Below, one piece after another: positions 800 through 63,530 of a stretch of DNA of 64,000 nucleotides. The translations under genes were made by a program, and so were the position numbers. Source of the DNA: Bacillota bacterium (GTDB lineage Bacteria; Bacillota; Clostridia; Peptostreptococcales; Anaerovoracaceae); NCBI GenBank assembly GCA_017437745.1, contig JAFRYI010000007.1, positions 1-64,000 of the forward strand, read 5' to 3'. Every line of letters begins with the position of its first letter. Position 1 is the first letter of the stretch. Under the pieces are notes generated by a model. It was given only the letters and a program-made list of their open reading frames with translations, did no database searches and had not been told where the DNA came from.

Positions 800-934
800 C
801 GGGTGTATGCTCTTCGTAAGGACAATTGGGGAACCCGGTGCTCTGCGACTGGCAAGCAAAGCGCAGACAGAACAGAAGCACCGCTGGGAGGGGCCCCATT
901 AGCGGGAGCGTGTCCTAAGGAGAGCATACACCCG
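800..934 (+). repeat. Structured interspersed repeat, copy A
   Basis: One of four copies of an element with a near-invariant core: GGGAACCCGGT at the left, ACCGCTGG in the middle, AGCGGGAGCGTGTCC at the right. The ends pair as a 14-bp perfect outer stem (800-813 with 921-934). Other copies are B (11350-11493), C (18059-18202, inverted) and D (25485-25612, inverted). Core bases stay constant while the outer stem sequence differs in each copy; A, B and C keep long well-paired stems. It lies between peptide locus 1 and the lipoprotein gene. I do not recognise it as a named RNA family. Confidence 0.85.
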
Positions 935-2877: not shown

Positions 2878-4596
2878 ATGACAGTAAAAACACCTTGGAA
2901 GGACTCGCTCGGCGACCTTCCGTTCACACTCGAATATTTCCAGGGCTCCATGTGGGAGGGCGTAGAACTGCAGGCCAAGGAAAGGCCTCATTACACCGCG
3001 CTGGACTTCATGGGAAAGACCATTTCCTACAGGGAGATGCAGAAGAACATAGAAGCCTGCGCCAGGAGCCTCCGCACCATAGGCGTGCGCCCCGGCGACT
3101 ACGTTACCATAGCCATGCCCAACTGCCCGCAGATCGTATACATTCTGTACGCGGTAAACATGGTGGGAGCCATAGCCTGCATGGTCCATCCGCTGTCTTC
3201 CGAAAAGGAGATGGAGTTCTACATCAACGAGACCAAAAGCGTTCTCGTAGTTACCCTGGACCAGTTCTACGACAAGATCGAGGCCATAAGGCATAACACT
3301 TCCATAATCAACATCGTGATCGCCAGCATCAAGGACGAGCTGGGCATCGTCGTTAAGGCGGGCTACTACCTTACCGAAGGACACAAACTGGCAAAGATCC
3401 CCAGCGACGCCCCGGTAATAGCCTGGGACGAGTTCGTTAAGATAGGCCACGCCTGCTCCTTCGATTTCAAGGTGCACAAGGGCTACGACGATCCGGCGGT
3501 GGTGCTGTTTTCCGGCGGTACCACAGGTACCTCCAAGGGCATACTGCTTACCAACGGCGCGTTCAACTCCGTAGGCAAGATGATAGTTGCCACCAACCCC
3601 ATGTTCCGTCCCGGCGACAAGATGCTTGCCGCAATGCCGCTGTTCCACGGCTTCGGACTGGGAGTCTGCATACACGCAATGCTTCTTAACGGCGGTCGCT
3701 GCCTGCTGGTGCCGCGCTTTACCCCTAAGAGCTATTCCAAGCTTATGGTAAAGAAGCGCTGCAACTTCGTGGCGGGCGTTCCTACGCTGTACGAGGCGCT
3801 GCTGCGTCTTCCCAACATGGAGAAGGCGGACCTGTCCGCGCTTAAGGGCGTCTATTCCGGCGGCGACAGCCTGTCGATAGAACTCAAGAAGAAACTGGAC
3901 ACCTTCCTTTACGACCACCAGGCCAGCGTGCAGGTACGCGAAGGTTACGGAGCTACGGAAACAGTAACGGCGTGCTGCCTTACACCGCCTCACAGGTACA
4001 AGGAAGGCTCCATAGGCCTGCCGTTCCCGGACACCTACTTCAAGATAGTTAAGCCGGACACGGAAGAGGAAGTTCCGTACGGCGAGGAAGGCGAGATACT
4101 CGTCTCCGGCCCCATGGTGATGACCGGCTATCTGAATCACCCGGAAGAGAACGAAAAGACTCTGCGCAAGCACGCGGACGGCCTTACATGGCTGTACACC
4201 GGAGACCTGGGCTCCATGGACGAGGAAGGTTTCGTGTACTTCAAGGGCCGCATAAAGCGCATGATCATAAGCTCCGGATACAACATATATCCGGCGCAGG
4301 TGGAGAACATCTTCGACTCCTGCGACCTGGTATCCATGAGCTGCTGCATAGGCATCCCGGATTCCTACAGAATGCACAGGCCGAAGATATTCATCGTGCC
4401 CGCGCCCGGCGTGGAGCCCACGAAGGAGACCAGGGACGCAATACTCAAGTACGCTTCCAAGCGCATAGCCAAGTACGCAATGCCCAAGGATCTGGAGTTC
4501 CGCACGGAGCTGCCCAAGACCATGGTAGGCAAGGTAGCGTACCGCGTGCTGGAGGAAGAGGAAGCCGCGAAACAGAAGGCGGAAGCGGAAAAATAG
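2878..4596 (+). CDS. AMP-forming acyl-CoA synthetase (class I adenylate-forming enzyme), first of two tandem paralogues
   Basis: 572 residues. Predicted to activate a carboxylic acid with ATP and CoA through an acyl-adenylate. Motifs in order: the phosphate-binding loop SGGTTGTSKG (about residue 213), GYGATET (about 358), YTGDLG (about 440), the hinge GRIKRMIISSGYNIYP (about 457), and a C-terminal LPKTMVGKVAYR carrying the A10 lysine. No signal peptide. The gene at 4689-6455 is a near copy along its whole length, so this is a recent tandem duplication. The substrate cannot be read from sequence; the length suits medium/long-chain or aryl acid ligases. AAAGGAT precedes the ATG. Confidence 0.88.
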   Translation: MTVKTPWKDSLGDLPFTLEYFQGSMWEGVELQAKERPHYTALDFMGKTISYREMQKNIEACARSLRTIGVRPGDYVTIAMPNCPQIVYILYAVNMVGAIACMVHPLSSEKEMEFYINETKSVLVVTLDQFYDKIEAIRHNTSIINIVIASIKDELGIVVKAGYYLTEGHKLAKIPSDAPVIAWDEFVKIGHACSFDFKVHKGYDDPAVVLFSGGTTGTSKGILLTNGAFNSVGKMIVATNPMFRPGDKMLAAMPLFHGFGLGVCIHAMLLNGGRCLLVPRFTPKSYSKLMVKKRCNFVAGVPTLYEALLRLPNMEKADLSALKGVYSGGDSLSIELKKKLDTFLYDHQASVQVREGYGATETVTACCLTPPHRYKEGSIGLPFPDTYFKIVKPDTEEEVPYGEEGEILVSGPMVMTGYLNHPEENEKTLRKHADGLTWLYTGDLGSMDEEGFVYFKGRIKRMIISSGYNIYPAQVENIFDSCDLVSMSCCIGIPDSYRMHRPKIFIVPAPGVEPTKETRDAILKYASKRIAKYAMPKDLEFRTELPKTMVGKVAYRVLEEEEAAKQKAEAEK

Positions 4597-4688: not shown

Positions 4689-6455
4689 ATGAGCATCGAA
4701 ACAACAGCAAAGACCCCGTGGAAAGACCACCTGGGGGACATCCCGTTCACACTCGAGTATTTCCAGGGAGCCATGTGGGAAGGCGTGGAGATCCAGGCCA
4801 AGGAAAGGCCTAACGCCGTAGCCATGGACTTCATGGGAAAAGCCATCACTTACAGAGAACTTCAGAAGAACATAGAGGCCTGCGCAAGGAGCCTCCGCAC
4901 CATAGGCATACGCCCCGGCGACTCCGTTACCATTGCGATGCCGAACTGCCCGCAGGGCATCTACATGTTCTACGCGGTGAACATGGTAGGCGGCATAGCC
5001 AGCATGGTGCACCCGCTGTCCTCCGAAAAGGAGCTGGAGTTCTACATAAACGAGACCGACAGCGTCCTGGTGGTGACCCTGGACCAGTTCTACCATAAGA
5101 TAGAAGCCATACGTCAGAACACCGGTCTTATAAACGTGGTCATCGCGCGCATCAGGGACGAACTTTCGCAGCCGATAAAGGCAGGCTACATGCTTACCGA
5201 GGGCCGCAAGATAGCCAAGATCCCGGACGACGCTCCGATAATCCCCTGGGACGACTTCATGAAGATAGGCCGCGCCTGCTCCTACAACTACAAGCAGCAC
5301 AGGACCTTCGACGACCCCGCGGTAGTTCTCTTCTCCGGCGGAACCACAGGCGTTTCCAAGGGCATAGTTCTTACCAACGGAAACTTCAACGCTCTGGGCG
5401 CCCAGATAGTTGCCACCAACCCCATGTTCCGCAAGGGCGACAAGATGCTTGCCGCCATGCCCATATTCCACGGCTTCGGTCTTGGCGTGTGCATACATTC
5501 CATGCTCTTCGGAGGCGGACGCTGCATACTGGTGCCGCGCTTTACCCCCAAGAGCTACGCCAAGCTTATGGTAAAGAAACGCTGCAACTTCGTGGCCGGC
5601 GTGCCCACTCTCTACGAGGCTCTTCTGCGTCTGCCCAAGATGGAGAAGGCAGATCTGTCCTGCCTTAAGGGAGTATTCTCCGGAGGCGACAGCTTGTCCA
5701 TAGAGCTTAAGAAGAAGCTGGACAAGTGGCTCTACGACCACAACTCCACCATACAGGTCCGCGAAGGCTACGGCACCACCGAGACCGTAACGGCCTGCTG
5801 CCTTACCCCGCCGCACATGCACAAGGAAGGCTCCATAGGCCTGCCGTTCCCGGACACCTACATCAAGATCGTAAAGCCGGGCACGGACGAGGAGCTGCCC
5901 TACGGCGAAGAGGGCGAGATACTGCTCTCCGGCCCCACCGTAATGAAGGAATACCTTAAGCACCCCGAAGAGACCGCGCAGACCTTAAGGACCCACGCGG
6001 ACGGCCTTACCTGGGTCTATACCGGCGACCTTGGAACCATGGACAACGAAGGTTTCACCTACTTCCGCGGCCGCAGCAAGCGCATGATAGTCACCTCCGG
6101 CTACAACGTATACCCGGCGCAGCTGGAGAACATCTTCGACTCCTGCGATCTGGTATCCATGAGCTGTGTGATAGGCGTTCCGGATCCCTACAAGATGCAG
6201 AAGGTAAAGGTGTTCGTGGTGCCCGCAAACGGCGTGGAGCCCAGCGACGCCACCAAGGAAGAGATACTGAAGTATGCGTCCAAGCGCATTGCCAAGTACG
6301 CCATGCCCAAGGATCTGGAGTTCCGCGCGGAGCTGCCCAAGACCCTGGTAGGCAAGGTGGCTTATCGCAAGCTGGAGGAAGAAGAGGAAGCAAAGCGCAA
6401 GGCTGCCGCCGAAGCAGAAGCTGCCAAGGCAGCAGCAGAGACCGCAAAAGCATAG
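4689..6455 (+). CDS. AMP-forming acyl-CoA synthetase, second tandem paralogue
   Basis: 588 residues with the same domain order as the upstream gene: SGGTTGVSKG, GYGTTET, YTGDLG, GRSKRMIVTSGYNVYP and LPKTLVGKVAYR. It differs mainly by an extended Ala/Glu/Lys-rich C-terminal tail of about 20 residues and by scattered substitutions, some in the acid-binding half, which suggests a related but not identical substrate. The gap to the upstream gene is 92 bp with no terminator; a strong terminator follows at 6481-6510. GGAGAG lies before the ATG. Confidence 0.88.
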   Translation: MSIETTAKTPWKDHLGDIPFTLEYFQGAMWEGVEIQAKERPNAVAMDFMGKAITYRELQKNIEACARSLRTIGIRPGDSVTIAMPNCPQGIYMFYAVNMVGGIASMVHPLSSEKELEFYINETDSVLVVTLDQFYHKIEAIRQNTGLINVVIARIRDELSQPIKAGYMLTEGRKIAKIPDDAPIIPWDDFMKIGRACSYNYKQHRTFDDPAVVLFSGGTTGVSKGIVLTNGNFNALGAQIVATNPMFRKGDKMLAAMPIFHGFGLGVCIHSMLFGGGRCILVPRFTPKSYAKLMVKKRCNFVAGVPTLYEALLRLPKMEKADLSCLKGVFSGGDSLSIELKKKLDKWLYDHNSTIQVREGYGTTETVTACCLTPPHMHKEGSIGLPFPDTYIKIVKPGTDEELPYGEEGEILLSGPTVMKEYLKHPEETAQTLRTHADGLTWVYTGDLGTMDNEGFTYFRGRSKRMIVTSGYNVYPAQLENIFDSCDLVSMSCVIGVPDPYKMQKVKVFVVPANGVEPSDATKEEILKYASKRIAKYAMPKDLEFRAELPKTLVGKVAYRKLEEEEEAKRKAAAEAEAAKAAAETAKA

Positions 6456-11349: not shown

Positions 11350-11493
11350 GGTCCGCGATGCCGCGTGTTAAGCGGACAATCAGGGAACCCGGTCCTTAGC
11401 GACCGGCGAGCCGCAGGCGAAGGCGGAGCTTAGTACCGCTGGGAGGGTGCCCTGTTAGCGGGAGCGTGTCCGCAAACACCGGCATCGCGGGCC
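11350..11493 (+). repeat. Structured interspersed repeat, copy B
   Basis: Same core as copy A: GGGAACCCGGTCCTTAGCGA, ACCGCTGGGAGGG, AGCGGGAGCGTGTCC. The outer stem is a different sequence: 11350-11363 pairs with 11480-11493 over 14 bp with a single G-U. It fills most of the 224-bp gap between the activase gene and DUF4125, oriented opposite to both. Confidence 0.85.
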
Positions 11494-18005: not shown

Positions 18006-18058
18006 TACCAAACGAAGCGGGAAATAAAGTGGCGCGGGATGGTTACGCGTATCGTTCT

Positions 18059-18202
18059 GCGGCGCGCAGGCTGTGTTCGCGGACACGCTCCCGCTTGGTT
18101 GGGATCCCACCAGCGGTACTAAGCTCTGTCTGCGCCTTCCGGCTTGCCAGTCGCTAAGGACCGGGTTCCCAAACAGTCCTCGGAACACAGCCTTCGCGCC
18201 GC
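18059..18202 (-). repeat. Structured interspersed repeat, copy C
   Basis: Inverted relative to A and B. Same core (GGGAACCCGGTCCTTAGCGA, ACCGCTGG, AGCGGGAGCGTGTCC). The outer stem is again unique: 18061-18078 pairs with 18183-18200 at 17 of 18 positions. Inner arm TTTGGGA/TCCCAA differs from the CAGGG/CCCTG of copies B and D but still pairs. It sits between the divergent pta and nagZ-like genes. Confidence 0.85.
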
Positions 18203-25461: not shown

Positions 25462-25484
25462 TTCATTTTACGGCGCATTAGTTC

Positions 25485-25612
25485 GCGCCGGTGCCCCGGG
25501 ACACGCTCCCGCTGACAGGGCACCCTCCCAGCGGTACTAAGCTCCGTCTTCGCCGGCGGCTCGCCGATCGCTAAGGACCGGGTTCCCTGATCGTCCGCGA
25601 CGCATCCGGACG
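25485..25612 (-). repeat. Structured interspersed repeat, copy D, inside the purine operon
   Basis: Inverted copy with the same core as B (GGGAACCCGGTCCTTAGCGA, ACCGCTGGGAGGG, AGCGGGAGCGTGTCC). Its outer stem is the least perfect: GGTGC/GCATC plus GGAC/GTCC. It lies between the purM stop and the purN SD, so it is co-transcribed in the antisense orientation. Confidence 0.82.
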
Positions 25613-25642
25613 ACTCACATGCGCAGAATAAAAGGATAAACC

Positions 25643-55925: not shown

Positions 55926-58900
55926 ATGAGTAAAAAAAGATTGTTAGCAATAGTGCTGACGCTCGTCATGGTGCTCAGCCTGATACCGCAGGTTTCATAT
56001 GCGGCGGCAGGCGATCCACCGGCGAATAGCAAGACATTGACTGACAACGGTGACGGCACCTATAAGCTCGAACTGAGCGTAACGGGTGACGCCGACTATG
56101 AGTCAGAACCTGTAAAGGCAAATGTCATCATCGTTCTTGACACTTCAGGATCGATGGATTTCCTGATCCCGTCCACTACGGGCAGCCGTGGTTCAACTGC
56201 GACTGATGGTGATACGAGGAACAACAACTTCCAGCTCTATCGTAACACCGGAGGGAACAACTACACTGCTATTGCTGATAGTGATAACTATAGTGGTACA
56301 GTATACTACTATCAGAATGGTTATGGTGGCGGTTGGAGAACATACACTGGTACTCGTTATTCAACGACCTCTCGTATGGATGCCACAAAGACGTCCGTCA
56401 ATAACCTCATCGATACGCTGGCCAGTCAGAACACGACGGCAAATCCCGACACAATCGAGATGTCGCTGATCACGTTCGCAAGCGACGGTGCGTACAACAC
56501 ACCCAACAGTGCAACAGCTAATAACTGGGTGAGCGGCACTGCAACGACCCTTAAGACCACGGTAAGCAACCTTAACGCCACCGGCGGTACCAACTGGGAT
56601 GATGCGCTCTATCGTGCAAATGCTCTGGCTGCGGCAAAGGCAACGGCTCAGCCTAACGAAAAAGTCTTCATCGTGTTCTTCTCCGATGGTGAACCTACGT
56701 TCAGCAATACGAATAGCAACAGCGATTCGCCTACTAGCCATACGCACGGAAACAACTCCAACAACGGTGGCAGTGGCACAACGACTCAGGATCGCGAAGC
56801 CAACTCTGCTTACTACCACGCAAATCAGATCCATAGCGCATCTTATGACAGCGCGCTCTATGGTATCTTCGCTTTTGGTACCGAAGAGAGCTACATGAAG
56901 AACGTCATCAGCTACGGCAACTATGGCGATGCGACCCATGCAAGCTCAGTTGAAGGCAGTCTCTACTTCAATGCCAACAGCCCCGAGGATATCGAAAACG
57001 CCTTCAGTAAGATCGCATCATCGATCATCGAAGCCGTAGGTATTACGGATGTATCCATTACAGACGGTACTACCAGCCATGTTGAAACCAGCACAGAGCC
57101 TGCAGAACTTCTTAATGTTGATGACGAGTCATTCGAATATTGGCTTAGCTGGAACCTTTCCTCAGGAAGCAACAAGTTCACGTCGTTCATTGGCGGAGAA
57201 CAAGTCGAGTGCACAGCTACGGCGAGCGGGGACAATATCGTCATCACCTGGGAAGGTGGAACGGCTACGTATGAGGGAACCATTACCGGCAGCGTCGTCA
57301 AAGTCAAGTGGACCGGAAAGACCGATTTCTATGACTTCGATCCTCCGGCTGCCTCCTTCGATGAAGACTCCGGTGCAGTGAACTGGAGTCTTGACTCTGT
57401 CGGAACACTTCTTAATGGTGTTACCTACTCTGTGAGCTTTGATGTCTACCCCAGCCAGGAGACTCTCGACACTGTTGCAGATATCAAGAATGATCCCGGC
57501 GCAACTGGCGCATGGGCAGACCTTGATCCTGCTATCCAGCAGTATATTGATGTGAATGGGAACTTAAAGACCAACACCACGGCCACGATCACCTACTCCG
57601 ATACGCGACTGGATAATCCTGGTCCCAAACAAACTACCATGACGAATCCTGATCCTGTGAAGAACAGTGCTATCAAAGAGCTGGCCGTCACAAAGGTGTG
57701 GGACAACGCGCTTGAGTCAGATTGGACTAAGCCCACAAGCATCGATCTTGATGTGACGCGCGACGGACAACCTCACTATACTGTTAGCCTTGGCGAGAGC
57801 AACTCATGGACTGGCACCGTCTATATATCCATTGGTATCATGGGGCCAGATGGCAAGCCGCTGGAAGGATCAGAGGGTCACGACTTCACATTTACCGAGC
57901 CTCAGATATCGGAAGGTTTTAGATGGGAAATAGACGCGCCCACTGTTCATCCGATGCTTATCAACAACGTAGTGACCATGCTCATCAAAGTCGATGCTGA
58001 TCATCCGGCACCTTCTGGAGCGACGACCTACACATTTAATAACGCTACTTACTACGTTGACAATGCGGCTGCGGCACTCACTGCAACCAACGAACGCCGC
58101 TCCAGTCTCAATCTGGTTAAGGCCGTCGACGGCGATGACGCGCCTGAAGACGCCGTGTTCCCATTCACGCTGAATGTTGTGAACTCACTTGCTCCCGAGA
58201 GCGAGCCGACAAACGATCCTGGTCACGACTCTGACTGGTGGGTGTGGATCTCGATTTGGGACAAGGATAAGCAGGCCGTCACCGAAGGAGCTGTGGTCAG
58301 CGGCGCTACCCACGCTGGAGGAAGCTGGTACTACGGCGTTAGCGGTCAGAATATTGTCCTCAACGTCAAGGACGGCTACTCTATCCGTATAAACAACGTG
58401 CCTACTGGTACGACCTATACCATCACCGAGGGTAACAGCACCACGCCTGGTTTTATCTTCGATACTGCCGAGATCAAGTTCACAGAGGGCAAGCAGCCCT
58501 CCTCCGCCTGGGCTTTCACCGGCGACCAGACCTCAACCGGTTCGATCGATTCCACCAACGCGGTCTACACCGTTACCTATACCAACACTTATCAGCTCAT
58601 CGACGTTAACGTCGATAAGGTCTGGGATGACAACAGCAACCAGGACGGCGTCCGTCCCGAGTCGCTTACTCTGACCCTCAACGGCGCGCCGAGCGGCACC
58701 ACCGTCCCCAACCCCACCATCACCAAGAGTGAGGACGGCAATACCTGGACCTACGTCTGGAAGGGCCTGCCCAGGTTTGACGCCGACGGCAACGAGATTA
58801 CTTACACCGTAACCGAAGGCACCGTGCCACAAGGTTATGATTGCACAAAGACCACCGTCAACGACGGAGACGAGATCAAAAACGTACATACACCGGAGAC

Positions 58901-61900
58901 ATTAAGCAAGGTTGCTACCAAGGAATGGGCAGACGGAAATAACGCGAATAACTCGAGGCCCTCTTCCGTCACCTTCAATCTTATGAAGAAGGTTGGAGAA
59001 GCTGAAGCGGAGGAGATCCTGGAGGTAACTCTCGACGGAGCCCCGGACGATGCTTCTACCGAAGAAGGTCCTGCCGGATATGAATCCACAGCATGGGAAG
59101 CTACGTTCATCAATCTGCCGAAGTATGAGAAAGGTGTTGAGATCACTTACTCCATTACTGAGGATCCGGTAGACAAATACGCGACGACCATCACTGATGG
59201 CGAAAACGGAACTACCGTTACCAATACATATGACTTCGGCGATCTCGAGATCACCAAGACCGTTGATCCCGGCAACGGAGATACCGGCAAGACTTCCGAA
59301 AAGGAATTCACGTTCACGGTAAACCTCTATAAGGATAGCACCAAGGCCGAAACCGTTTCGGGAAGCTTCAACTACACCATTACTAACGCCTCCGGAACGA
59401 CTCAGTCGACCGGCACGATCTCCAATGGAGAAACAGTAAAACTCAAGGATGGTTGGAAAGTCCTCATTGAGGATATTCCTAACGGAACGTATTATGAAGT
59501 AACTGAAGCAACTGAAAAGGGCTACACCACCAGCAAGACCGGCGATACCGGCACTATCGTGAGCAACGAGACCAAGACCGCTGCTTTCACGAATACTTAT
59601 AATGCGGATCCTGTAAAGGCACAGATCCCTGTTGTCAAGAACGTTACTCCTGAAAACTCCGGAGCGGCTGACATCACCGGAAAGTTCACCTTCACGCTTG
59701 CGGCGGGAACAAATACTGCAGGCGAAGGTGTTACCACCCCGATGCCCTCTGCTAACACAGTCGCATGCGGAGCTGACGGTGTTGAAGTCAAGTTCGGCGA
59801 GATAACGTTCAACGCTCCTGGGACCTACACCTACACAGTGACTGAGTCCGAGACAAACGGAGCTGTCGGCGGCATTACGCTCGACTCCGACAAGCCGAGG
59901 ACCATAACCGTTGTCGTAACAGATGACGGAGAAGGAAAACTCTCTGCTGCAGTAAACGGCGGCGCGACTGTTGAATTCAACAACCCGTATCAGCTGACAT
60001 CGCTGGATATCACGATCCCTGTTGAAAAGATCCTTGAGGTACCTACTGGCCTTACTGGTCCGGATATCACCGAGGCTTACACCTTCACGATCGCTACCAC
60101 AAATAATGCTCCGCTGCCTGAGACGAAGACTCTCCAGAACCCCGGCGCTGCAGGCGGTTCCATGACTTTCGGTGAAAAAGCAACTACTGGTAAGATCACC
60201 ATTACCGAGCCCGGAACCTATACCTATACTATTACTGAGTCCGGAAGCGCTCCCGGAGTTACAAACGATGCAGAGGCCACCAAGACCGTTACGGTAACAG
60301 TTGTCAACGATGGTGATGGCACCATGTCCTACACCATCAATGATGCTGATAATGAGAATGATGACGTTACCAAGTTCACCAATACTTACAGCGCGGAGCC
60401 TGTAAATGCCAGCATCTATGTAAAGAAGGTTCTCGCAGGAGCCAATGCGCCTGATATCACCAACAAGTTTACATTCACGATTGCTGATGATCCTTCAGAT
60501 GATGTGACATCACCGCTGCCCGAAACAAAGTCAGGCAACAACCCGGCTGTGAATGGCGGAGTCGTGACATTTGGACCGATCGAATATACCGCACCCGGAA
60601 CCTATGTTTACGTGATCACAGAGTCCGGAACAGTCGAGGGTGTTGTAAACGATCCTGAAGCTTCGACTGGTAAGAAGGTTACTGTGGTAATTGTAGATGG
60701 CAAGGAAGGAGCGCTCGTGGTCAAGAGCAGTACTTCTACAGAAGAAAGCCCGCTTCAGTTCACCAATTCCTACCACGAGATCACAGCTAATATTACTGTG
60801 ACCAAGGAACTTGCTAAGAATCCAACGAATCTCGAAGGACCTGATATCACAGGCAAGTACACATTTACTATCGCAGCAGGAACCAATACTGCTGGTGAGG
60901 GCGTAACGACTCCGATGCCTGCGACCACTTCCGTTACTAACAGCGGCGGTGCGATGCAGTTCGGACCGATCACCTTCAAAGAACCGGGCGAATACACTTA
61001 CACAGCAACTGAGTCCGGAAAAGTTGACGGCGTGACCAACGATACGGAGACAAAGACCGTTACTATTGTAGTCGCCAGAAACGATGAAGGTAATCTCACA
61101 GTTGGATACAAAGAAGGATCCAAGACCAGCTTCGACTTTGTCAACACTTACACTGTTAAGCCTGTTACGGCGAAGTTCCCCGTTAAGAAGGTCATGAGCG
61201 TTCCTGCCGGACTTACCGGACCTTCTGAGTGGAGCTACACTATTGGTGTTGCTGCCGAAGACGGTGCTCCTGTGGCAGATTCCATGACAGGAACTGTGAC
61301 CAAGGCTGAGCCCACCGTCACTTTTGGAGACTTTACCTTCACTGCGCCCGGAACCTATACCTACACAGTTACAGAGACAGCGACCGGCGAGATTAAAGGT
61401 GTAACCGACGATTCTGCGGCATCGACCGGTAAGACTGTACAGATTACAGTAACTGATAATAAGGACGGTACGCTTACTGCTACACCGTCCAGCACAGCAG
61501 ATAATCCGCTCACATTCACCAACAGCTACAGCGCTACGTCGATCACTGCTACCATTCAGGTGCACAAAGATCTGGTAGCCGAGAATCCGAAGGTATCCTT
61601 ACCGGATATCACGGAAAAGTATACATTCACGCTCGCTGATGATACATCGGATGACGTGGATTCACCGCTGCCTGAGACCAAGGAAGTCAAGAACCCTGCA
61701 AAGGATGGCGGTACCGTACCATTCGGAACTATTACATACGAAGCTCCGGGAACATATACTTACGTTGTAACAGAGTCCGGAACAGTAACTAATGTTACTA
61801 ATGATCCCGAGGCGACAACAGGCAAGAAAGTGACTGTTGAAGTTGTCGACGGAGGAGAAGGCAAGCTTGTTGCAACTGTAAAGTATCCTGATGCAGAAAA

Positions 61901-63530
61901 GGCTGAAGTAGACTTTACCAACACCTACAAGGCGCCTCCTGTGGAAGCAAGCTTCCCGGTACAGAAGATCGTCAGCGTGCCTGATGGACTCACCGGACCT
62001 TCTGAGTGGAGCTACACTATCGATGTTGCCGCAAACGGAACCGCTCCTGCAGCGAAGACCATGACAGGTACTGTAACCAACAGCAAGGATACAGTCACCT
62101 TCGGACCGTTCAGCTTCACAGAGCCCGGCGAATTCACTTACACTGTGAAAGAGACCGGAACCGTTAAGGGTGTTACCAACGATAAGGAAGCCGCCGGCAA
62201 GACCGTGACAGTAAAAGTAATTGATAACGGAGACGGAACGCTCAAAGCTACACCGAGTGTAAGCGATGAGTCACCGCTTAAGTTCACAAATACTTACGCA
62301 GTAGAGCCTACGACGGCAAGCTTCCCGGTCAAGAAGGTCATCGATGTTCCTAAGGGACTCACCGGACCTAAGACCTGGAGCTTCACTATCGACGTTGCTG
62401 CAAACGGAAGTGCTCCTGTGGCAAAGACCATGACAGGTACTGTTGATCAGAATAACGACACAGTCACCTTCGGAGACTTCACTTATACCGAACCTGGAAC
62501 CTATACTTACAAGGTTACAGAGACCGGAACCGTTAAGGGTGTGACCAACGATAAGGATGCTGCCAGCGGCAAGACCGTGACTGTTACCGTAAAGGATAAC
62601 GGAGACGGAACACTCACAGCTACAGCTGACTCTACTGCGGACAAGCCGATCGAGTTCACTAACACTTACAGTGTTGAGCCTGTAAAGGTCGACCCGCCGG
62701 TAAAGAAGAATATCGATGGTAATGAGTCGCTCTACAACAAGGGAGACTTCACATTCAAGATCGAGTGCACGAAGATGCCTGCCGGAGTTGAGAAGGCCCC
62801 GATGCCTGACAAGACTGAGGTCAAGAATGTCAAGGCTGATGAGCATCCGGAGAAGAAGGGTTACTATGAATTCGGCTGGATCACCTTCACGGTGCCCGGA
62901 GAATATATCTACACAGTGACCGAGTCCGGAAGCGCTCCCGGAGTTACAAACGATTCGGAGGCTACCAAGACTCTGAAGTTCACAGTAACTGATGGCGGCG
63001 AAGGCGTTCTCGAGATCACACCGACCTCTGATAGTGCGGTATTCGAATTTACCAACACTTATGGTACGAAGGGCGAATTCGTTCCGGAAGTCACCAAGGT
63101 ACTGGACGGACGCACTCTGAAGGCGGGTGAATTCAAGTTCACACTGTCTGACAGCGACGGCAAGGTTATCGACACCAAGACCAATGCTGCGGACGGAAAG
63201 GTCACATTCGATGCATTGAGCTTCACCGGAGCCGATGACGGAAAGACCTACACCTATACGATCACTGAGGTTAAGGGAACTGACAAAGACGTAGTTTATG
63301 ATACTCACACCGTGACCCTGACAGTCAGCGTGAAGGACAATGGAGACGGAACGATGACGGCAACAGGCACCTACAACGGCGACCAGAAGTTCATAAACAC
63401 CATTGAAGCTCCGGATACCGGCGATCACAGCCAGATAGCTCTCTGGTCCGGCATACTGATCGTATCCCTGCTTGGAATAGCGCTCCTGGCAGTAATCAAG
63501 CGCAAGAAGCCCGCAAAGCACAGCAGATAA
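55926..63530 (+). CDS. Giant wall-anchored surface protein: VWA domain, CnaB-type domains, ten isopeptide pilin-like repeats
   Basis: 2,534 residues. Signal peptide (residues 1-26, ending YAAAG). A VWA domain begins about residue 64 with the metal-site motif DTSGS (72-76) and continues to about 370, including GGTNWDDAL; it carries a Tyr/Gly/Asn-rich insert. Residues about 585-1225 hold CnaB-like domains (ELAVTKVWD, VNVDKVWDD, VATKEWADG, LEITKTVDP). Residues about 1227-2490 are ten repeats of 110-130 residues with an early Lys (VKK), a (V/I)TES/TET glutamate and a final FTNTY, the layout of Spy0128/FctA isopeptide pilin domains. The C-terminus is a sorting signal: APDTG, hydrophobic helix, RKKPAKHSR. 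Likely an adhesin or pilus-tip-like protein fixed by a sortase encoded elsewhere. SD AAGGGAGA. Confidence 0.92.
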   Translation: MSKKRLLAIVLTLVMVLSLIPQVSYAAAGDPPANSKTLTDNGDGTYKLELSVTGDADYESEPVKANVIIVLDTSGSMDFLIPSTTGSRGSTATDGDTRNNNFQLYRNTGGNNYTAIADSDNYSGTVYYYQNGYGGGWRTYTGTRYSTTSRMDATKTSVNNLIDTLASQNTTANPDTIEMSLITFASDGAYNTPNSATANNWVSGTATTLKTTVSNLNATGGTNWDDALYRANALAAAKATAQPNEKVFIVFFSDGEPTFSNTNSNSDSPTSHTHGNNSNNGGSGTTTQDREANSAYYHANQIHSASYDSALYGIFAFGTEESYMKNVISYGNYGDATHASSVEGSLYFNANSPEDIENAFSKIASSIIEAVGITDVSITDGTTSHVETSTEPAELLNVDDESFEYWLSWNLSSGSNKFTSFIGGEQVECTATASGDNIVITWEGGTATYEGTITGSVVKVKWTGKTDFYDFDPPAASFDEDSGAVNWSLDSVGTLLNGVTYSVSFDVYPSQETLDTVADIKNDPGATGAWADLDPAIQQYIDVNGNLKTNTTATITYSDTRLDNPGPKQTTMTNPDPVKNSAIKELAVTKVWDNALESDWTKPTSIDLDVTRDGQPHYTVSLGESNSWTGTVYISIGIMGPDGKPLEGSEGHDFTFTEPQISEGFRWEIDAPTVHPMLINNVVTMLIKVDADHPAPSGATTYTFNNATYYVDNAAAALTATNERRSSLNLVKAVDGDDAPEDAVFPFTLNVVNSLAPESEPTNDPGHDSDWWVWISIWDKDKQAVTEGAVVSGATHAGGSWYYGVSGQNIVLNVKDGYSIRINNVPTGTTYTITEGNSTTPGFIFDTAEIKFTEGKQPSSAWAFTGDQTSTGSIDSTNAVYTVTYTNTYQLIDVNVDKVWDDNSNQDGVRPESLTLTLNGAPSGTTVPNPTITKSEDGNTWTYVWKGLPRFDADGNEITYTVTEGTVPQGYDCTKTTVNDGDEIKNVHTPETLSKVATKEWADGNNANNSRPSSVTFNLMKKVGEAEAEEILEVTLDGAPDDASTEEGPAGYESTAWEATFINLPKYEKGVEITYSITEDPVDKYATTITDGENGTTVTNTYDFGDLEITKTVDPGNGDTGKTSEKEFTFTVNLYKDSTKAETVSGSFNYTITNASGTTQSTGTISNGETVKLKDGWKVLIEDIPNGTYYEVTEATEKGYTTSKTGDTGTIVSNETKTAAFTNTYNADPVKAQIPVVKNVTPENSGAADITGKFTFTLAAGTNTAGEGVTTPMPSANTVACGADGVEVKFGEITFNAPGTYTYTVTESETNGAVGGITLDSDKPRTITVVVTDDGEGKLSAAVNGGATVEFNNPYQLTSLDITIPVEKILEVPTGLTGPDITEAYTFTIATTNNAPLPETKTLQNPGAAGGSMTFGEKATTGKITITEPGTYTYTITESGSAPGVTNDAEATKTVTVTVVNDGDGTMSYTINDADNENDDVTKFTNTYSAEPVNASIYVKKVLAGANAPDITNKFTFTIADDPSDDVTSPLPETKSGNNPAVNGGVVTFGPIEYTAPGTYVYVITESGTVEGVVNDPEASTGKKVTVVIVDGKEGALVVKSSTSTEESPLQFTNSYHEITANITVTKELAKNPTNLEGPDITGKYTFTIAAGTNTAGEGVTTPMPATTSVTNSGGAMQFGPITFKEPGEYTYTATESGKVDGVTNDTETKTVTIVVARNDEGNLTVGYKEGSKTSFDFVNTYTVKPVTAKFPVKKVMSVPAGLTGPSEWSYTIGVAAEDGAPVADSMTGTVTKAEPTVTFGDFTFTAPGTYTYTVTETATGEIKGVTDDSAASTGKTVQITVTDNKDGTLTATPSSTADNPLTFTNSYSATSITATIQVHKDLVAENPKVSLPDITEKYTFTLADDTSDDVDSPLPETKEVKNPAKDGGTVPFGTITYEAPGTYTYVVTESGTVTNVTNDPEATTGKKVTVEVVDGGEGKLVATVKYPDAEKAEVDFTNTYKAPPVEASFPVQKIVSVPDGLTGPSEWSYTIDVAANGTAPAAKTMTGTVTNSKDTVTFGPFSFTEPGEFTYTVKETGTVKGVTNDKEAAGKTVTVKVIDNGDGTLKATPSVSDESPLKFTNTYAVEPTTASFPVKKVIDVPKGLTGPKTWSFTIDVAANGSAPVAKTMTGTVDQNNDTVTFGDFTYTEPGTYTYKVTETGTVKGVTNDKDAASGKTVTVTVKDNGDGTLTATADSTADKPIEFTNTYSVEPVKVDPPVKKNIDGNESLYNKGDFTFKIECTKMPAGVEKAPMPDKTEVKNVKADEHPEKKGYYEFGWITFTVPGEYIYTVTESGSAPGVTNDSEATKTLKFTVTDGGEGVLEITPTSDSAVFEFTNTYGTKGEFVPEVTKVLDGRTLKAGEFKFTLSDSDGKVIDTKTNAADGKVTFDALSFTGADDGKTYTYTITEVKGTDKDVVYDTHTVTLTVSVKDNGDGTMTATGTYNGDQKFINTIEAPDTGDHSQIALWSGILIVSLLGIALLAVIKRKKPAKHSR

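Follow-up and report, generated by a model that had tools for sequence, protein, structure and literature searches.

The element at 800–934 of the window (the 64,000-nucleotide stretch of DNA analysed here) belongs to a dispersed, non-coding family of structured repeats. Its copies occupy intergenic sites that are conserved between species, lie in both orientations at one and the same site, and are absent from some of the corresponding sites in relatives. It is the strand as read that folds. The reading that we favor, with a probability of about one half, is that this is a REP/BOX-like family that acts as folded RNA when it is transcribed. The copies are many, short, palindromic, non-coding, intergenic and scattered, as REP- and BOX-like repeats are in the broad sense of the term.

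Copies in the window, the home genome and the genus

A preliminary description of the window had proposed four related copies with a conserved core and copy-specific outer arms, and all four were located:

800–934, forward strand: copy A, whole element; outer arms 800–813 and 921–934, core 820–915
845–873, forward strand: inner hairpin of copy A, GCGACTGGCAAGC..GCGCAGACAGAAC; the module common to other phyla
902–909, forward strand: small hairpin of copy A with a GNRA-type loop (GC-GGGA-GC)
11352–11491, forward strand: copy B, whole element; core 11374–11471, inner hairpin 11399–11429
18056–18198, reverse strand: copy C, whole element; core 18081–18179
25478–25615, reverse strand: copy D, whole element; core 25499–25596

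Copy A lies between rplQ (L17, 1–293) and the next gene, which starts at 1023, and copy D between purM-like and purN-like genes. The inner-arm variants TGGGG/CCCCA, CAGGG/CCCTG and TTGGGA/TCCCAA are as first described, and so are the outer stems of copy A (a perfect 14 bp, 800–813 with 921–934) and copy D (partial). The other two stems differ in detail: the outermost stem of copy B is 12 bp with one T·G wobble, plus more pairs further in, and that of copy C pairs at 18 of 19 positions. Folding z-scores against dinucleotide shuffles are –5.7, –4.5, –3.3 and –0.7 for copies A to D, so that energy alone shows no unusual stability for copy D. Folded singly, copies B to D miss some of the consensus inner helices, which for these copies derive from the alignment. 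(Elsewhere in the window, 55926–63530 encodes a 2534-aa protein, probably a surface protein, with ten FctA (Spy0128-like isopeptide) domains and Cna_B domains, and the neighboring long open reading frames at 2878–4596 and 4689–6455 are paralogous, with 78–81% DNA identity over two 300-nt stretches.)

The home genome (G000; 1.63 Mb, 98% complete) holds 17 full copies and two 5'-half fragments. The copies score E values of 1e-17 to 1e-22 with a covariance model that was itself built from 15 of the 17; a DNA search found them independently at 1e-13 or better. In the genus, nine of the ten other genomes hold between 1 and 21 copies. In Rfam 15, no family matches the element above its curated gathering threshold, and in six loci none covers it at E values up to 5.

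A branched fold with a covarying core

The consensus was drawn from 15–17 home-genome copies and then from 89 matches in the genus, 84 of them distinct. The element is about 100–150 letters long, with a conserved core of 96–101 nt (GGAC...GTGTCC) closed by the copy-specific outer arms. The outer stem, P1, ends in GGAC/GTCC; P2 (for example TTGGGG/CCCCAA) carries an unpaired T; and P3 is CCGGTnCT/AGnACCG. Within these lie an inner hairpin of 30–36 nt, GCGAYYGGCRAGC(C)-loop-(G)GCGMAGRCRGAGC, whose two internal loops are G/A-rich, and a short GC hairpin with a GNRA-type loop that varies between GGGA, GCGA and GAGA.

Double changes occur at 18 of the 32 core pairs among the 84 distinct rows, compared to a shuffled mean of 9.2, and none of 500 shuffles was as high on any measure; these counts come from an alignment fitted to the model's structure and are to that extent biased in its favor. 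Paired cells amount to 95.5%, falling to about 40%, with at most seven doubly changed pairs, when the partners are slid by one to three columns. In the small GNRA-type hairpin, 99% of cells are paired and one pair appears as GC, CG and UA. Helix covariation above shuffled controls, as is required of a structured RNA, is thus present, and the earlier contention that the folded form matters gains strength from this larger alignment and from the many further copies, whether in this genome, in its relatives or in distant bacteria. In addition, a loop position of the inner hairpin covaries without Watson-Crick pairing (A/CA 49, G/AA 42, A/AA 8 and G/CA 1 among the wide pattern matches). Duplex DNA does not explain this non-canonical covariation, which therefore counts for a structured RNA.

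Outer arms and the folding strand

Within at most 24 nt of the core, the arms form a mean of 18.7 Watson-Crick pairs, compared to 12.2 when arms from different copies are combined. Among orthologous copies that share an orientation, 25 arm positions have changed on both sides and are still paired, where 2.7 would be expected if the arms were independent, and 17 have changed on one side; these events are not all independent, since some of the species pairs share branches. By itself, compensation in the outer stem argues less strongly for RNA than the preliminary description held, since it could also arise by template switching from one arm to the other. The isolated mismatches are more telling. 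Counted once per locus, there are 29 G·T against 9 A·C mismatches (p=0.0017), and since G·T on the strand as read is A·C on its complement, it is the pairing of the forward strand that is kept. This bias favors a folded RNA (or folded single-stranded DNA) of the forward strand over a palindrome in duplex DNA.

Genomic placement

The genus copies examined are intergenic and, by crude gene calls, 33 are antisense and 22 sense between tandem gene pairs, 16 lie between convergent genes and 9 between divergent genes. This mixture of orientations rules out a riboswitch or other cis-regulatory leader, and the slight excess of antisense over sense counts against a purely cis-acting mRNA element, which would not predict it. 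(One copy in the home genome lies about 1.1 kb from a lysine riboswitch, Rfam RF00168, E 2.7e-20, at 2691–2860 of locus L017 on G000:C2.) Nor is there a direction-specific –10 box near the genus copies, with 20 forward upstream matches at –40 to –31 and 17 in the mirror position.

Outside the genus, sense exceeds antisense by 31 to 12. In four Lachnospiraceae genomes (L071, L082, L174 and L180), a sense hairpin directly follows the rplJ stop codon, which overlaps it, ahead of rplL. Other Lachnospiraceae sites, likewise sense and after the stop codon, are rplK/rplA, rpsN/rpsH, rpsH/rplF and purE/purM, all of these neighbors being named by eye from their translations rather than by profile search.

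Inversion, empty sites and copying

Orthology was assigned across the genus by 1.5-kb flanks, and orientation was compared between species. Twenty sites are occupied in at least two species, and at 10 of these the element is inverted relative to its neighbors in some of them. The clearest case is L011, where the flanks and arms of G000 and G002 agree and the interior alone is turned. At other inverted sites, the arms have changed too, and replacement by another copy may be responsible. It is also possible that some apparent inversions are misassemblies around short inverted repeats, as most of the genomes are metagenome-assembled, but the arms, at about 20–25 nt, are much shorter than a read. 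The site of copy A is among the inverted ones, a call made less certain by a neighboring second copy. Copy B is found at the same site and in the same orientation in G002; copy D keeps its orientation in G002 and is inverted in G004.

Empty sites, which the preliminary description had proposed to seek in relatives, exist. The site of copy C is empty in G002, G004, G006 and G010. Another, L193, is occupied in G002–G004 and empty in G000, where loss is the more likely explanation. A third, L244 of G009, is absent from G005 and G010 together with its palindromic arms, so that insertion into a pre-existing palindrome is not supported at the single site tested. In G009 itself, the copies L244 and L245 are 97% identical and have in common a unique extension of about 50 nt, but their outermost arms differ. 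One has evidently been copied from the other, to judge from this likeness, and the difference suggests that a copy acquires its outermost arms on insertion or later. Next to the element at L244 (G009:C33), positions 2298–2490 of the locus hold another, distinct repeat, about 190 nt long, of which G009 has at least five more copies. At L245 (62–464 of the locus, G009:C11), the element is enclosed in a very large palindrome whose GGGGACGGTTCTC motifs may be those of a further repeat type.

The inner hairpin beyond the genus

On the evidence of pattern matches, only the inner hairpin is a widely conserved module. In the genome collection, its pattern matched at least 117 stretches, those listed including many Clostridia and Lachnospiraceae, Oceanobacillus, Gracilibacillus, Terrilactibacillus, Phascolarctobacterium and some Alphaproteobacteria. 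(Some matches in GC-rich genomes—Rhizobium, Luteimonas, Myxococcales and others—are probably due to chance.) The stems that surround the hairpin differ by lineage, often in tandem arrays, and its copy number ranges from 2–3 per genome in Blautia and Roseburia to 38 in Phascolarctobacterium and 46 in Oceanobacillus oncorhynchi. Its distribution is patchy: an even draw of the phylum found it in at least 5 of 398 genomes, the home genome included, under strict filters, and within the family Anaerovoracaceae as sampled outside the genus it occurs only in Bacilliculturomica massiliensis. With the inner hairpin alone as query, there was no match among 72,556 plasmids and 50,697 phages. Of two pattern matches in viral contigs, L183 looks like chance in GC-rich DNA and L184 looks real.

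The arrangement around the hairpin varies in several of these bacteria. In B. massiliensis (G018; L059–L065), tandem arrays with a 121-nt period alternate two hairpins, alike in their inner module but unlike in their stems, and the hairpins are separated by extended –10-like boxes, TGGTACAAT. In Phascolarctobacterium (L144, L257–L285; G219, G243, G346), the hairpin comes immediately after TGGTATAATGTGAACA, in direct arrays of 58–111 nt, and some also have a variant hairpin, GTGAAATCAAGCC..GGCGAAGATTGA, close by. In Oceanobacillus neutriphilus (L113, L146), the hairpin lies within a mosaic repeat, several hundred nucleotides long, whose ends form a further inverted repeat, GCGGACCGTTTTG / CAAAACGGTCCGC.

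Relation to known repeat classes

Which known elements does the family resemble? The BOX, RUP and SPRITE repeats of Streptococcus pneumoniae are likewise short, dispersed and intergenic with a predicted RNA fold; BOX is modular, and such repeats are thought to act through co-transcription with neighboring genes (PMC3049150). In the present family, no terminal inverted repeat common to the copies was seen, and the outermost arms differ between copies while remaining paired; its inner hairpin, moreover, crosses phyla, and both orientations occur at one orthologous site. MITEs have terminal repeats that are common to their copies and to a parent transposon, with target duplications; the possible mobilizers sought here were Y1 transposases and reverse transcriptases. 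REP and BIME sequences, which go with RAYT (Y1) transposases, are also intergenic palindromes, single or arrayed and often between the genes of an operon, but the present structure is larger and branched, with internal-loop signatures, and its arrays are direct, with two hairpins alternating. No Y1 transposase was found in the home genome, in G002–G004 or in B. massiliensis, and for want of such a resident gene the family does not qualify as a REP/RAYT element. (Y1 genes are present in some other members of the genus, G009 having five matches.) Nor was there a reverse transcriptase in the home genome, which sets aside a group II intron or retron derivative.

Invertons are short intergenic segments between inverted repeats that are flipped by recombinases and, like this family, occur in both orientations, which are compared here between species. 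The inverted repeats of this family, however, differ at each locus around a conserved interior, and a search for a promoter inside the genus copies gave no strand-specific –10 signal. In chloroplast DNA, a loop between inverted-repeat arms can also turn in place (PMC12371153); such hairpin-assisted small inversions are of 4–50 bp, on the authority of Kelchner and Wendel 1996. By contrast, this family is bacterial, with a structured interior of about 100 nt at many dispersed sites. Its kind, the small dispersed structured repeat, is thus already known. A search of the literature by repeat type and literal sequence, a weak negative that covered open-access texts, found no description of this family, its cross-phylum hairpin module or its in-place inversion.

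How might the repeats act?

As RNA, the element would form a branched fold in which a long, copy-specific closing stem encloses a branch to the conserved hairpin, with its two G/A-rich internal loops, and the small GNRA-type hairpin. It would most likely act as a folded piece within the untranslated parts of transcripts, as has been proposed for BOX and related repeats (PMC3049150). Placed at the end of a transcript or between two genes of an operon, it could shield the message, cause a pause or direct processing, perhaps with a host protein bound by way of the G/A loops. In DNA, the arms constitute an inverted repeat, and strand exchange or template switching between them could turn the core in place over evolutionary time, presumably as in the chloroplast hairpins (PMC12371153).

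The preliminary description had left the choice between a structured RNA and a hairpin-ended mobile element. The former is favored by the excess of G·T over A·C and by the non-Watson-Crick covariation; the latter is supported in part, since the empty sites and the duplicated pair show that copies have dispersed in the past, but the majority are inherited where they stand. A purely selfish origin is the main rival, less probable than the reading as folded RNA but a serious one: a MITE- or REP-like element whose single-stranded DNA hairpin was recognized by a transposase acting in trans and since lost would owe its structure to selection for mobility, not for any host function. The patchy presence, the often high copy number where the element is present, the empty sites and the copying in G009 all fit such an element, and so does the G·T bias, which folded single-stranded DNA would equally produce. 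However, the genomes named above lack a Y1 transposase, the home genome lacks a reverse transcriptase as well, and the inner hairpin had no match among the plasmids and phages; fixed copies still compensate at their sites, as a dead element should not, and the rplJ/rplL site is common to four Lachnospiraceae genomes.

It is unlikely that the copies are instead a family of trans-acting small RNAs. Each would then have its own promoter, and orientation relative to the neighbors would be irrelevant, which agrees with the free orientation and the flips, as does the extended –10 box TGGTATAATGTGAACA just before the Phascolarctobacterium-type hairpins, with similar boxes in the Bacilliculturomica arrays. 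But the genus copies have no direction-specific –10 enrichment, the arms vary too much to hold a conserved promoter, and the Lachnospiraceae copies start at the stop codon of the preceding gene. Still more doubtful is the proposal that arm pairing is a mere by-product of template switching (palindrome correction) and loop inversion in DNA, with no selection on RNA. Hairpin-helped inversions are known from chloroplasts (PMC12371153), and both orientations do occur at half of the orthologous sites; correction of this kind, however, is strand-symmetric and would not be expected to produce the G·T bias. It should also have erased the mismatches and bulges that persist within the arms, as seen in the comparison at L011, and it leaves aside the short core helices, which covary as well.

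Dispersed bacterial repeats are usually regarded as species-specific selfish DNA. We tentatively suggest, as something possible rather than probable, that the folded-RNA reading extends to a hitherto undescribed family of RNA-structured repeats that crosses phyla and is based on a single hairpin with two G/A-rich loops, which a widespread putative partner would recognize. Closing stems would be specific to each lineage, compensation would keep copies functional at fixed intergenic sites, and orientation would toggle by way of arms that arose with insertion, being absent from the empty sites of relatives. A module common to Clostridia, Bacilli, Phascolarctobacterium and some Alphaproteobacteria, together with the non-canonical covariation and the maintenance of pairing where copies are fixed, makes a common host factor a target worth searching for, and flipped and unflipped copies at one site provide a natural and direct test of whether it is the RNA strand or the DNA palindrome that counts.
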